A stretch of 64,000 nt of DNA, from NCBI GenBank assembly GCA_016182905.1, contig JACPFR010000031.1, positions 1 to 64,000 on the forward strand, read 5' to 3'. Below the pieces are notes generated by a model. It had not been told where the DNA came from. It made no database searches and saw nothing but the letters and a program-made list of their open reading frames with translations. This document shows positions 5,670-15,229 of the stretch, in pieces. The translations under genes and the position numbers were made by a program. Each line of letters starts with the position of its first letter. The stretch's first letter is position 1. This DNA is from Elusimicrobiota bacterium. GTDB lineage: Bacteria > Elusimicrobiota > Elusimicrobia > UBA1565 > UBA9628.

Positions 5670-7070
5670 ATGAGGATCCCCGCCGCCGCCCTGCTCGCCT
5701 CGCTGACCTTGGCCGCCGGCTGCATGCCGGCCGCGCCCAAGCGCGCCGACGCCCTGAGCGTGATGTCCGCCCAGGGCCGCAACCGCGACGTCAAGAAGCT
5801 GAGGCTGGCGATGATGTTCTCGGAGAACACGAAGAACGCCGCCGCGTACCTGCAGAAGGCGGCCGGCACCATGACCGGGCGGTGGGGCAGCGTCAACGAC
5901 GTCGCCTTCTTCCAGTCCATCAGCGGAGCCCTGGAAAAGGCCTTCGCGACGGTCGTCACGGTGGACAGCCTCGAGCAGGCGAAGGCCGAGGGCGCGCACG
6001 TGGCGGCGATCGTGGACGTCTACGCGAAGATCGGAAGCGCCTCCTTCACGAAGACCTCCGCCGAGGTGGGCGCGGCGTTCCAGTCGCTCGACGGCGCGCC
6101 GATCGCCGTGGTGCGCGGGGCGGGACATTATCGCGTCCCTTATCCCAACACGAGCTTGCGCTGGGCCGAGGCGAGCGGCGCGGCGGTGGAGACCTTCGCG
6201 CTGGCGCTGTCGACCAACGCCGAGCTCGCGGAATTCGCGTCGAGGACGGCGCCGTCGGCCGCGGTCGCCGCCGCCCCGGCGGCCCCGGCCCCCGCGCCCG
6301 CGGCCAGGTCCTACCGCTCCGACGTCGAGGAGCCCTCCTTCCATCGCCCCGAGGACGCCTCGAAGTTCGCTTTGGTCGTCGGCGTGGAGCAATACGCGTC
6401 GCTGCCCGCGGCCGAGCACGCGGTCCGGGACGCCAAGGCGCTGAAGGCGCACCTGCTCGCCGCCGGATATCCCGAGCGGAACATCGTGCTCCTGACCGAT
6501 CAGCAGGCGGGGAAATCGGGGCTGGAGAAGTATCTCGACGCCTGGCTGCCGAAGAACACGGACGAGAAGTCCTCCGTTTTCTTCTACTTCTCCGGGCACG
6601 GCGCCCCGAACCCGGACGACGACCAGGCCTACCTGGTCCCGTGGGACGGCGACCCCAAGTTCCTGGCGAACACCGGCTATCCCGTCAAGCGCCTCTACGA
6701 GCGGCTCAACGCGCTCAAGGCCAGGCGCGTCCTGGTCGCGATGGACGCCTGCTTCTCGGGCTCCGGCGGGCGCTCCGTGCTCGCCAAGGGCACGCGCCCC
6801 CTGATCGCCAAGGTGGACCTCGGCGCGGGCACCGCCGGCCGCGTGCAGGCGCTGACCGCCTCGGCCTCCGACGAGATCACCGGGACCGACGAGGCCTCCG
6901 GCCACGGGCTCTTCACCTACCAGCTCCTCAAGGGCCTATCCGCGAAAGGCGGCCGGGCCACGTTCAAGGAGCTCTTCGACTACCTGACCCCGAAGGTCCG
7001 CGACGCGGCCCGCCGCGACAACCGGGACCAGACGCCGCAGCTCGTCGGGAACGGAGACGCCTCTCTGTAG
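5670..7070 (+). CDS. Caspase-like (C14) lipoprotein
   Basis: A 466-residue exported protein. The signal ends in LAAGC (Cys18), predicting lipid anchoring. Residues 30-190 form an uncharacterised domain that resembles penicillin-binding-protein-activator or LpoB-like stress lipoproteins only vaguely. An Ala/Pro linker (195-215) leads to a peptidase C14 p20-like domain (230-466) with the catalytic dyad His310 in YFSGHG and Cys361 in MDACFSG. Translation starts at an ATG 7 nt after a GGAG ribosome binding site. Bacterial metacaspase-like proteins usually cleave after Lys or Arg; the substrate, and whether it acts outside the cytoplasmic membrane as the signal implies, are open. Confidence 0.85.
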   Translation: MRIPAAALLASLTLAAGCMPAAPKRADALSVMSAQGRNRDVKKLRLAMMFSENTKNAAAYLQKAAGTMTGRWGSVNDVAFFQSISGALEKAFATVVTVDSLEQAKAEGAHVAAIVDVYAKIGSASFTKTSAEVGAAFQSLDGAPIAVVRGAGHYRVPYPNTSLRWAEASGAAVETFALALSTNAELAEFASRTAPSAAVAAAPAAPAPAPAARSYRSDVEEPSFHRPEDASKFALVVGVEQYASLPAAEHAVRDAKALKAHLLAAGYPERNIVLLTDQQAGKSGLEKYLDAWLPKNTDEKSSVFFYFSGHGAPNPDDDQAYLVPWDGDPKFLANTGYPVKRLYERLNALKARRVLVAMDACFSGSGGRSVLAKGTRPLIAKVDLGAGTAGRVQALTASASDEITGTDEASGHGLFTYQLLKGLSAKGGRATFKELFDYLTPKVRDAARRDNRDQTPQLVGNGDASL

Positions 7071-12043: not shown

Positions 12044-13444
12044 TCAAGCCCGCACGACGAGCCAGAGGCGGGCCGAGCGCGAGCGCGGGTTCTCCCGGAT
12101 CTCCTCGGGCGAGGCGCGGCGCGGCGGGGCGGGGGGCGCGGCCCACAGCCCCGCGGCCGCCTGCTCGTTCAAGGCCGCCGACACGAGGGCCTCCTCCCCG
12201 GAGTGGAAGGTCAGCAAAGCGACTCGTCCTCCGGGGCGCATCAAGGAGGGCAGGTCGTGCAGCAGCCGGGCCAGCGACTCGCGCTCGGCGTTGACGGCGA
12301 TGCGCAGGGCCTGGAAGGCGCGCGCGGCGGGATGCTTGGAGGAGGCGTCCTTCTTGACGAAGCGGCCCGGCCCCAGGCCCTTGGCGACGCCGACCGCGGA
12401 GGCGAGCTCGAAGGTCGTCCTCGGCGCGCGCCCCTCGGCGGCGAAGGCCGCGAGCGTCCTCGCGATCGCGCGGGCGTCGGGCTCGTCGCCGTAGCGGACG
12501 AGGGCGTCCTCGATCTCGTCCGCGGAGGCGGCCGCGAGCCACTCCGCCGCGGTCCGGCCGCTCGAGCGGTCCATGCGCATGTCGAGCGGGCCGTCGTTCT
12601 TGAACGACATCCCGCGCTCCGGCCGGTCGAGCTGCATCGACGAGACCCCGAGGTCGGCCAGCAGCGCGTCCACGCCGTCGAGACCGAGCCCCCGGAGCGC
12701 GTCCTTGGCCGCCGCGTAGTCGCTCCGGCGCGCGGTGATCCTCACGCCGGACTCGCGCAGGCGCTTCTCGGTGCGGGCGAGCTCCTCGCCGTCGCGGTCG
12801 AGGCCGACGACCGTGCCGGCCGGCCCCGCCGCGCGGGACAGCTCGGCCGCGTGGCCGCCCCAGCCGAGCGTGCAGTCGAGGACCTTCGCGCCCGGCAGCG
12901 GCGCCAGCGCCTCCAGGATCTCGCGGACCATGATCGGCACGTGCGCGCCCGCGGGCGTCGAGCCGCGGGCCTTCGCCTTGGCGATCGCGTCGGGATCGGC
13001 GCCGAGCTCCTTGTACTTCTGCTCGAACTTCTTCGGGTGCGTGCCCGTGTAGCGCTCGCGCCGGCGGTAGGCGGCGAGGACCTCGGCGATCGGGACGTCC
13101 GCGGGGGCCAGGTCGTACTCGAGCAGGCGGCGGGCCTCGACCCATTTGACCTGGTCGTGGTCGACGAGCTTGAATTCTCCGATGAATTTCGGCACGAGGA
13201 ACGCGATCAGCTCGATCTCCCCGAAGTCGTAGGCGTGGCGCGTCCGCGCGACCTCGGCGCCGACCGTGGCCTCGATGCCGAGCTCCTCGCGCAGCTCTCT
13301 CAGAAGCGCCGCTTGCGGCGTCTCGCCTTCCTCGATGCGGCCGCCGGGGAACTCCCACTTGCCCGCGTGCTTGCGGCCGGGGCCCCGCCGGGCGAGGAGG
13401 ACGGCGCCGGAGCGTAGGATGACGCCGGCGCACACGGGGATCAT
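12044..13444 (-). CDS. Nudix hydrolase fused to RsmH-like methyltransferase
   Basis: A 466-residue two-domain protein. Residues 1-125 are a MutT-type Nudix domain with a complete box (G35 through GI57, including REL-REELG), expected to hydrolyse nucleoside diphosphate derivatives such as oxidised dNTPs. A basic linker (128-166, YTGTHPKKFEQKYKEL) precedes a class I methyltransferase domain (167-466) with VPIMVREIL, DCTLGWGGH, LADLGVSSMQLD, GPLDMRM and LTFHSGEE, the hallmarks of MraW/RsmH, which N4-methylates C1402 of 16S rRNA. The linker and TPAG-H motif recall a second RsmH-like subfamily seen beside the housekeeping copy in some bacteria. No division-cluster genes are nearby. TAGAAT (13450-13455) ends 5 nt before the ATG. 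Confidence 0.85.
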   Translation of the reverse strand: MIPVCAGVILRSGAVLLARRGPGRKHAGKWEFPGGRIEEGETPQAALLRELREELGIEATVGAEVARTRHAYDFGEIELIAFLVPKFIGEFKLVDHDQVKWVEARRLLEYDLAPADVPIAEVLAAYRRRERYTGTHPKKFEQKYKELGADPDAIAKAKARGSTPAGAHVPIMVREILEALAPLPGAKVLDCTLGWGGHAAELSRAAGPAGTVVGLDRDGEELARTEKRLRESGVRITARRSDYAAAKDALRGLGLDGVDALLADLGVSSMQLDRPERGMSFKNDGPLDMRMDRSSGRTAAEWLAAASADEIEDALVRYGDEPDARAIARTLAAFAAEGRAPRTTFELASAVGVAKGLGPGRFVKKDASSKHPAARAFQALRIAVNAERESLARLLHDLPSLMRPGGRVALLTFHSGEEALVSAALNEQAAAGLWAAPPAPPRRASPEEIRENPRSRSARLWLVVRA

Positions 13445-13480: not shown

Positions 13481-15229
13481 ATGAGCCCCGCCGCGCGCGC
13501 GATCGCCGCCGTCGTCATCGCCAACCTGCTCCTGTTCCTCGCCGTCGTCGCCCTGCCCGCGTATCAGGCCGCCCATCATCACTGGATCTTCCCGGTGCTC
13601 GCGGCCCTGTTCGCGGCCGAGTGGGGGCTGACCTTCGTGCCGTCGCCGGCCGACAAGGTGGTGGACCGCTCGGCTCTGCGCGCGAGCGTCGTCTCTTTGC
13701 TGGTCTTCCTGCTCGTCATCGGCATCGCCCGCCACGCGACCATCCTCGCCTGCTTCGACCGCTGCTCGTTCAAGCTCGCCGCCGCCGCGGCCCTCGCGGG
13801 GTGCGTGTTCCTCGGCCAGACGTGGTCGCGCAGCGCGGGCTTCTGGGATCCGCTGCGCTCGAGCCTCGCGGCGTACGGCGCCTTCCTGTGGGCGCTGTAC
13901 CTCGTCCTGCGCGGGCTCAACGTCGCGCCCTGGCTCGTCGACCTCGGCTTCGTCATCCTAGCGCTGATGTTCTGGCTCGGACGGGACCGCGCCGCCTTCC
14001 TGATCGCCTCCGCGGGCATCCTCGCGGCGCTCGCCGTGCGCGCGACGGCCAACGAGTACGCCATCATCGGCTTGAGCGTGGTCTGGAGCGTCGCGCTCCC
14101 CCTGTGGGCCGCGCCGCGGGTGGAAGCGTGGCTCGCGAAGCGAAGGGTCGGGCCGGCGCCGGCGGGGCCCGCCGAACCTCTCGGCCCAAGGCTTCTGATG
14201 AGCGCTCTGCGCATTTCCGTTGCCGTTGCCGTCATCGCCGGAATCGCTCGATTCGTTGCCGGTCCCGTCTCCCTCGTCACCGACCCCCCGAAGCGTCGCG
14301 CCTATCTCCTCGAACGGGCTCCGGCGCCGTTGGACCACTCCGCGCTATCGCCTCTGGCCGCCCGCCTGCGCGCGCACGTCGTCATGCTCTCCGTCACGAT
14401 CGGCGCGCGCGACGCCTACAGCAAGAAGGGGCGCGAGCGGGCGCGCGACTACGTCGTCGCCCAGCTCAAGGCGGCCGGCTACGCGCCGAAGCTCCTGCCC
14501 TACGAGTCGCGCCTGATGATCGGCGTGCCCGACGGCTCGCGCTTCCACAACGTCGAGGCGCTCCTTCCCGTGCGCGCGCCCGAGCCGCGCGGCGCCTGGG
14601 TGATCGGGGCCCATTACGACTCGGCCCCCGGCACGCCCGGCGCCGACGACAACGCCAGCGGCGTCGCCGTGCTCCTCGAGGCCGCGCGCCTGCTCCGGGA
14701 GCGGAGGCCCGGCCGCGAGGTGCGCTTCGTCGCGTTCGGCACCGAGGAGCCGCCCTCGTTCGGCACGCGCAACATGGGCAGCTGGCAGTACGCGCGGGCG
14801 TTGAAGGACGGCGGGGTCCGCGTGCACGGCGTCGTCGTCCTCGAGATGCTCGGCTTCTACAACCCGCGCCCCGGCTCCCAGCTGTACCCGCCGTTCATGC
14901 ATCTCTTCTTCCCGGACCACGGCGGCTTCGTCGGCGCGGTCGGCAACGTCGAGAGCCGCGGCCTGCTCGCCGCGTTCGGCGCGGCGTGGAGGAAGGCCTC
15001 GCGCTTCCCGCTGACCCTCTCGATCCTGCCCGGGCCGTTCGCGACCCTCGCCCTGTCGGACCAGCTCAACTTCTGGGCGCACGGCTATCCCGCCGTGATG
15101 GTCTCCGACACCGCCTTCTACCGCAACGCCAACTACCACGAGTCGACCGACCTCCCCGAGACGCTCGACTACGAGAAGATGGCCGAGGTCGCGGAAGCGC
15201 TCGCCTCGGTCCTCTCCGAGAAACGGTGA
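13481..15229 (+). CDS. Membrane-anchored M28 aminopeptidase
   Basis: A 582-residue protein. The first 265 residues hold about eight hydrophobic segments; the C-terminal half (about 290-580) is an M28 zinc peptidase domain facing outward by analogy with membrane M28 proteins. Zinc motifs seen: GAHYDSAPG (His, about residue 372), GADDNASGVA (bridging Asp), and GTEEPPSFGTRNMGS (catalytic Glu pair), with a later HES(T)DLPE His. Likely releases N-terminal residues from peptides in the periplasm. The start at 13481 follows TACACT by 7 nt. Confidence 0.85.
   Translation: MSPAARAIAAVVIANLLLFLAVVALPAYQAAHHHWIFPVLAALFAAEWGLTFVPSPADKVVDRSALRASVVSLLVFLLVIGIARHATILACFDRCSFKLAAAAALAGCVFLGQTWSRSAGFWDPLRSSLAAYGAFLWALYLVLRGLNVAPWLVDLGFVILALMFWLGRDRAAFLIASAGILAALAVRATANEYAIIGLSVVWSVALPLWAAPRVEAWLAKRRVGPAPAGPAEPLGPRLLMSALRISVAVAVIAGIARFVAGPVSLVTDPPKRRAYLLERAPAPLDHSALSPLAARLRAHVVMLSVTIGARDAYSKKGRERARDYVVAQLKAAGYAPKLLPYESRLMIGVPDGSRFHNVEALLPVRAPEPRGAWVIGAHYDSAPGTPGADDNASGVAVLLEAARLLRERRPGREVRFVAFGTEEPPSFGTRNMGSWQYARALKDGGVRVHGVVVLEMLGFYNPRPGSQLYPPFMHLFFPDHGGFVGAVGNVESRGLLAAFGAAWRKASRFPLTLSILPGPFATLALSDQLNFWAHGYPAVMVSDTAFYRNANYHESTDLPETLDYEKMAEVAEALASVLSEKR

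Follow-up and report, generated by a model that had tools for sequence, protein, structure and literature searches.

The window, a stretch of 64,000 nucleotides from an Elusimicrobiota bacterium, carries on its reverse strand a gene in which a Nudix hydrolase domain is joined to a methyltransferase domain of the RsmH/MraW family. The gene is a single open reading frame of 466 amino acids that begins with an ATG at 13444, ends with a stop codon at 12044-12046 and has no internal stops. Pfam finds both domains in this one frame and NCBIfam the RsmH-family one, and the fusion had been predicted from the DNA letters with exact coordinates and strand. Ahead of the methyltransferase domain lies a basic motif, which marks the N-terminus of a second RsmH subfamily, named RsmH2 here, whose members are widespread and mostly stand alone. 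The features of the gene are the following.

12044..13444, reverse strand: whole Nudix-RsmH2 fusion gene (open frame; 20 relatives with Nudix and motif in frame)
13088..13438, reverse strand: NudG-like Nudix domain, residues 3-119 (PF00293, E 2.2e-20; best PDB match 2rrk, E 1.5e-27)
13274..13342, reverse strand: intact Nudix box, residues 35-57 (pattern match; gone in 5 of 20 relatives)
13091..13111, reverse strand: LAPADVP loop, residues 112-118 (aligns with LAPADIP of E. coli NudG, 2rrk)
12947..13063, reverse strand: RsmH2 N-terminal motif RRxRYxGTHPKxFxxKYKEL..GSTPAGAH, residues 128-166 (profile of 29 rows with 18 invariant columns)
12056..12946, reverse strand: SAM methyltransferase domain of the RsmH/MraW family, residues 167-463 (PF01795, E 1.5e-68; model matches RsmH structures and METTL15)

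The methyltransferase part reaches 232 bits with Methyltransf_5 (PF01795), above the Pfam cut-off, and the fused protein scores 217.5 bits with the NCBIfam RsmH model TIGR00006, whose cut-off is 154.3. The protein carries SSMQLD and FHSGEE and agrees with the subfamily motif RxRYxGxxPxxFxxKYKE..GxTPAGxH. Its AlphaFold2 model has a mean pLDDT of 89.2 and a pTM of 0.67 and is confident inside both domains. Residues 121-170 are uncertain in the model, with pLDDT block means of 59-72, and the relative placement of the domains is therefore left uninterpreted. Fold matches of the model include the RsmH structures 1n2x, 1wg8 and 3tka and METTL15, as well as the Nudix hydrolases BdRppH, Orf135/NudG and MutT2, the last in structures with 5mdCTP, dCTP and dCMP. 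BdRppH, an RNA pyrophosphohydrolase, is the first of the Nudix fold matches.

The Nudix box, G-x5-E-x7-RE-U-x-EE-x-G-U, is complete in the fused protein (GRIEEGETPQAALLRELREELGI, residues 35-57), as had been predicted, but its description as MutT-type gives way to NudG-like, which fits better. In the PDB sequence ranking NudG/Orf135 (2rrk) comes first with 127 aligned residues, followed by a Nudix hydrolase of unknown function in second place, BdRppH in third and mycobacterial MutT2 in seventh. The fused domain has the LAPAD loop and the Nudix box in common with NudG/Orf135, the CTP, dCTP and 5-methyl-dCTP pyrophosphohydrolase of E. coli, and the loop includes the residue that we take to be Asp118 of Orf135. 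Unlike NudG, the domain is fused to a methyltransferase, and it does not reach the cut-off of the NudG equivalog NF007834 (115.9 bits against 156), for which reason it is called NudG-like and not NudG. None of the NCBIfam Nudix equivalogs places the fused protein over its own cut-off. Of the six other Nudix genes in the window genome, only two resemble the fused domain at E<=1e-8, and both with low scores (39.6 and 35.8 bits).

The neighbours of the fused gene vary, and no conserved neighbourhood was found among the relatives compared; an M28 peptidase (13481-15229) and an alpha/beta-hydrolase nearby are present at high identity in the closest relative, G003, only. Viral contigs scanned with the fused protein gave six pattern stretches and no confirmed case, and a PHROGs search returned generic Nudix matches only. 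Elsewhere in the window, an ORF on the forward strand (5670-7070) has SGHG and DACFSG motifs, which resemble those of caspase-type proteins (peptidase C14).

RsmH2, a second RsmH subfamily

A profile search of the genome collection with the basic motif gave at least 523 confirmed loci. Among the matches listed, the record titles of RsmH2 proteins name Elusimicrobiota, Planctomycetota, Verrucomicrobiota and Acidobacteriota, and further Fermentibacteria, Eisenbacteria, Deltaproteobacteria, a Burkholderiales bin and Bacillota; cultured carriers among them are Propionispira arboris DSM 2179, Diplocloster agilis and Anaerotignum sp. Phylum surveys, which are drawn genome samples and not whole phyla, found the motif in 42 of 294 Elusimicrobiota genomes, in 36 of 337 from the phylum of a Verrucomicrobiaceae MAG, in 33 of 347 from that of an Acidobacteria MAG, in 30 of 294 from that of a Planctomycetota MAG (one of them, G1191, marginal at E 9.7e-4) and in 12 of 249 from that of a Bacillota isolate; carriers are thus present in every phylum surveyed. 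When 80 of the at least 523 loci are considered, 65 have no Nudix domain before the motif in the same frame. One further carrier, L087 (CALQBJ020000057.1), is titled Bifidobacterium breve; its genome has three PF01795 genes, and the title may be wrong.

The original prediction took the basic stretch YTGTHPKKFEQKYKEL for a linker typical of a second RsmH-like subfamily. The subfamily is borne out, as the motif marks a clade apart from canonical RsmH; the linker is not, the stretch being the N-terminal motif of proteins that mostly stand alone, and the idea that it was made for the fusion was rejected on the same grounds. In a 246-row tree, the 41 canonical rows make up one side of a branch (one change, support 100). 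A careful 55-row tree splits RsmH2 from canonical RsmH with a support of 100/97, and the fused protein falls outside the canonical clade. SSMQ is present in 200 of 205 RsmH2 rows and FHSGE in 192 of 205, and 35 of the 41 canonical RsmH rows have FHSLED.

The closest known systems on the methyltransferase side are RsmH itself and a mitochondrial relative. The fused protein is like RsmH (MraW), the methyltransferase of m4C1402 in 16S rRNA, in its fold and SAM motifs, with 34-38% identity to the solved structures in the fold search, whereas RsmH2 differs from it in being a separate clade, in the extra N-terminal motif, in the combination of SSMQ and FHSGE and in its position outside the division cluster. 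METTL15, the mitochondrial 12S rRNA m4C methyltransferase, has the RsmH-family fold and SSMQLD in common with RsmH2, but shows FHSLED in the aligned part where RsmH2 has FHSGE.

Two PF01795 genes are present in the window genome. The canonical one (334.9 bits) is part of a cluster on contig C61 with the order MraZ, canonical rsmH, PBP transpeptidase (ftsI), two Mur ligases (murE/F-like), a glycosyltransferase-4 protein (MraY-type) and FtsW/RodA. The fused gene (232 bits) lies on contig C31, outside this mraZ-mraW division cluster and among neighbours that differ from those of the cluster. It is a second RsmH-family gene and not the housekeeping RsmH, which agrees with what the original prediction had suspected, and it is not the sole RsmH of the genome. 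A search that covered 39 of the 80 motif loci found more than one PF01795 match, in a few cases fragmentary, in 35 of the 39 genomes tested.

An RsmI-type gene is also present in the window genome (TIGR00096, 196.5 bits against a cut-off of 167.9). Because a canonical RsmH and an RsmI are separately encoded in the same genome, the target of RsmH2 would be a site other than C1402 of 16S rRNA, and if so, many bacteria would have an unmapped m4C site. The RsmH2 proteins tested exceed the TIGR00006 equivalog cut-off and would therefore be named RsmH; the paralogue is probably misnamed as the C1402 methyltransferase in many genomes. Among the open-licence PMC papers listed by the literature searches, none deals with a fusion of Nudix and RsmH or with the RsmH2 subfamily.

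Two observations concern the region upstream of RsmH2 in other bacteria. In Diplocloster agilis (L126:3419-5011, NZ_JAHQCW010000031.1), a GNAT domain (PF13302, E 1.5e-36) is in frame with RsmH2 and may be a second N-terminal fusion, although internal starts exist and two genes are possible. In Elusimicrobiota family f13, five loci (L134, L135, L136, L138 and L142) share a small protein encoded ahead of RsmH2; SWIB/MDM2 (PF02201) matched 2 of 105 upstream proteins, which are taken to be these small proteins.

Recurrence and loss of the Nudix domain

The Nudix domain and the motif are in frame in 20 genomes of the window's order, including the closed chromosome CP096137 (L076, the same place as L015), and the fusion is therefore not an assembly accident. 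Four of the 20 fused genes end at contig ends (L008, L020, L041 and L046), and in G043 an in-frame TAG (L013:1963-1965) lies between the motif and the methyltransferase of an otherwise intact fused gene. The two parts do occur apart in some relatives, yet the fusion recurs across many independent assemblies, which speaks against two separate genes having been joined by a sequencing error.

The Nudix box is kept in 15 of the 20 fused relatives, in one of them with S replacing the box glycine, and lost in 5, and the PAD of the LAPAD loop follows the same division, being kept in the 15 and altered in the 5. RsmH2 without a Nudix domain is found in three more genomes of the order (G028, G038 and G205), which brings the genomes with a lost or absent Nudix domain to 8 of the 23 with RsmH2 in the order. 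Among the matches listed, no close NudG-like copy was found elsewhere in these lost-box or Nudix-less genomes. Hydrolysis would therefore be dispensable for RsmH2 in them. In two genomes, G005 and G013, a NudG-like gene (53-54% identity) stands by itself and RsmH2 is missing.

The RsmH2 proteins of the window's order, both fused and Nudix-less, group in a single clade (100/98) that is sister to RsmH2 rows of the Planctomycetota survey, and Elusimicrobiota family f13 has an RsmH2 from a different clade; from these two placements, horizontal transfer of RsmH2 is likely. Within the order, the methyltransferase fragment of G002, in which the box is lost if the pieces at two contig ends belong to the same gene, clusters with the intact-box G043 and G039 (98/94), and G004, G010 and G014 group with the intact-box G011. 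Given both groupings, the Nudix box has probably been lost at least twice.

Compared with the window gene, 11 intact-box relatives give a Nudix dN of 0.045-0.220, a methyltransferase dN of 0.048-0.264 and a dS of 0.30-1.05, and the Nudix value is below the methyltransferase value in 10 of the 11 comparisons. The three full-length lost-box relatives give Nudix dN values of 0.316, 0.503 and 0.639 and a methyltransferase dN of 0.199-0.262. This pattern points to selection on the Nudix domain where the box is intact, to drift of the domain but not of the methyltransferase where the box is lost, and to an RsmH2 that can manage without it.

A MazG-like partner gene

A gene of the MazG-like family PF12643 lies immediately upstream of RsmH2, on the same strand, at 11 of 204 distinct RsmH2 loci, by a profile count that takes in loci with GKNP/GKYP motifs. 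These genes are the largest cluster of RsmH2-upstream genes, and in all 11 junctions a candidate RsmH2 start overlaps the PF12643 stop (ATGA, GTGA, TTGA, TGATG or longer). With G611 and G659 the coupled genomes come to 13, from Verrucomicrobiota and Acidobacteriota. The Nudix fusion is found at 17 of the 204 loci, and 176 have neither partner. Neither a Nudix nor a MazG-like gene was found within the flanks examined of 41 canonical rsmH loci (42 rows minus L022, a mislabelled RsmH2 fragment).

Three of the partner proteins score 56.2-58.2 bits with PF12643, whose cut-off is 27. Their first PDB profile match is 4qgp, titled only 'pyrophosphatase' (9.6e-23), and among the named PDB entries RS21-C6/dCTP pyrophosphatase 1 come closest (E 8.1e-22), which makes a dCTP pyrophosphatase the putative function of the overlapping gene; its fold is other than Nudix and is absent from the window protein. 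Human DCTPP1 hydrolyses dCTP and C5-modified dCTPs, according to one study (PMC7162842).

In 74 hand-picked RsmH2 genomes searched for PF12643, the family is over its cut-off in 29 of the 60 non-elusimicrobial ones; 13 are coupled, and 5 genomes had been chosen for known coupling. The Verrucomicrobiota survey has 8 coupled genomes among 36 with RsmH2 (7 of 35 once the centre genome is set aside), and among the Acidobacteriota survey loci examined the centre genome alone is coupled. On the RsmH2 tree, the coupled state takes 5 changes. The partner proteins form a single subfamily (98/96), of which 13 members are coupled and 6 uncoupled; every member comes from an RsmH2 genome, which is partly owing to the choice of genomes.

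The association was also counted in 288 Verrucomicrobiota genomes, a set inferred as G323 plus G344-G630, on which the Fisher tests rest. The partner subfamily is present in 12 of them (at least 192 bits, the next match being at 132.5), and RsmH2 is found in 11 of these 12 against 29 of 288 overall (Fisher p 1.7e-11, kinship ignored). When the 6 genomes behind the profile are left out, RsmH2 is present in 5 of 6 partner-subfamily genomes (Fisher 1.3e-5); for other MazG-like proteins, it is present in 7 of 41 genomes (p 0.097). The Fisher values overstate the association because related genomes are not independent. The sole partner carrier with no RsmH2 match is G620, where a look at the 12 kb around the partner copy likewise found none.

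A possible link between methylation and nucleotide cleaning

The reading that we favour, tentatively, is that a cytosine-N4 methyltransferase, RsmH2, is coupled to a NudG-like house-cleaning hydrolase of the (d)CTP type, which perhaps removes N4-methylated cytidine nucleotides. Judging by its family and its kept motifs, RsmH2 would methylate cytosine N4 in RNA, at a site that probably differs from the canonical C1402 of 16S rRNA, and the Nudix domain, by its likeness to NudG, would hydrolyse (d)CTP-type nucleotides to the monophosphate. Turnover of the modified RNA would release nucleotides that could give rise to, for example, N4-methyl-CTP or N4-methyl-dCTP, and the hydrolase would keep these from the precursor pool. 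Modified ribonucleosides are said to reach dNTP pools via salvage (PMC12887539), and a precedent for a Nudix enzyme that clears a methylated nucleotide is MTH1, which removes N6-methyl-dATP (PMC7152754).

A cleaning enzyme of a different fold beside RsmH2 elsewhere suggests that cytosine methylation and cytidine-nucleotide clearance can be linked, and the cytidine nucleotide could be the simplest common thread of the two RsmH2-linked hydrolases, both of which are (d)CTP-pyrophosphatase-like. In a broader form, which we consider doubtful, RsmH2 would be an undescribed, widespread m4C methyltransferase, for which the clearance of N4-methyl-(d)CTP would have been solved at least twice by unrelated folds, the Nudix fusion of Elusimicrobiota and the overlapping dCTP-pyrophosphatase-1-like gene of Verrucomicrobiota and Acidobacteriota. 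If true, RsmH2 and its hydrolase would be a bacterial pair for RNA modification and nucleotide sanitation. The tie bears on how cells handle modified nucleotides freed from RNA, and its recurrence with cytidine-nucleotide pyrophosphatases offers a testable guess at why a cleaning domain joins an RNA methyltransferase.

Several observations count against such a coupling, namely the 176 of 204 loci with no partner, the lost or absent Nudix domain in 8 of 23 genomes and the NudG-like genes of G005 and G013, which occur without RsmH2. The same holds for BdRppH being among the top matches, for other routes by which N4-alkyl cytidines are cleared, such as the cytidine deaminases reported in one paper (PMC9897663), and for E. 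coli MutT, which another describes as inactive on N4-Me-dCTP (PMC3744803). The route of N4-methylcytosine demethylation in E. coli is called an open question in a further source (PMC11898903).

Rather unlikely, in our estimate, is that an ordinary NudG/MutT-like enzyme, acting on oxidised dNTPs or dCTP, was fused by chance and is kept for its own job of general pool cleaning, so that the joining is mechanistically meaningless. This would agree with the NudG-like genes that G005 and G013 carry alone, with the weak matches of the other Nudix genes of the window genome, in which the fused copy may be the only NudG-like one, and with the uncoupled constraint on the two domains in lost-box lineages. 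A differently folded dCTP-pyrophosphatase-like gene that is tied to RsmH2 elsewhere, by overlap and by co-occurrence, counts against this reading.

A role as a sensor in ribosome assembly is improbable. E. coli NudG and MutT are reported to turn (p)ppGpp into pGp in vitro and in vivo (PMC5845004), and PDB titles place RsmH homologues in intermediates of mitoribosome assembly; the Nudix domain might thus degrade or bind (p)ppGpp near the ribosome and tune subunit maturation to nutrients, with RsmH2 as an assembly factor. The second partner, however, is dCTP-pyrophosphatase-like, with no known ppGpp hydrolase among its PDB matches. The positions of BdRppH, third by sequence and first among the Nudix fold matches, could point to RNA 5'-end processing, in which the Nudix domain strips pyrophosphate from an RNA before RsmH2 methylates it. 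This is quite improbable, as NudG is closer by sequence and the LAPAD loop is kept, the NCBIfam RppH models give 25.7-34.4 bits against cut-offs of 116-259, and PF12643, to which the overlapping partner is assigned, is a family of nucleotide pyrophosphatases.

It is very improbable that the Nudix domain is a decaying accessory, with RsmH2 as the sole working part in the order: in the window's group it is conserved about like the methyltransferase or more (10 of 11 comparisons), even though 5 of 20 relatives have lost the box, three more genomes of the order have an RsmH2 with no Nudix domain at all and the dN of the domain is raised in lost-box lineages. An anti-phage function combining dCTP depletion with RNA methylation is highly improbable, since the match of the Nudix domain (residues 2-125, 143.5 bits) to the PADLOC candidate defence model PDC-S07 is set against a second PADLOC match, mad2, that covers part of the methyltransferase weakly, a MazG-like partner that matches no PADLOC model and the lack of an identified defence gene adjoining the fused gene, whose neighbours were judged by reading.

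Other cleaning enzymes beside RsmH2 are single cases. Among RsmH2-upstream genes without the MazG-like partner, a Pfam scan of 105 of 137 stretches (32 were dropped by hand, mostly as near copies) gave no enriched cleaning family in 25 of the 83 matched families, a Ham1-type gene aside. This gene (L202:754-1368, G515) encodes an NTP pyrophosphatase of a third cleaning-enzyme family and lies directly upstream of RsmH2. At L194 (G572), the tail-to-tail neighbour of RsmH2 is MazG-like but comes from a different subfamily.
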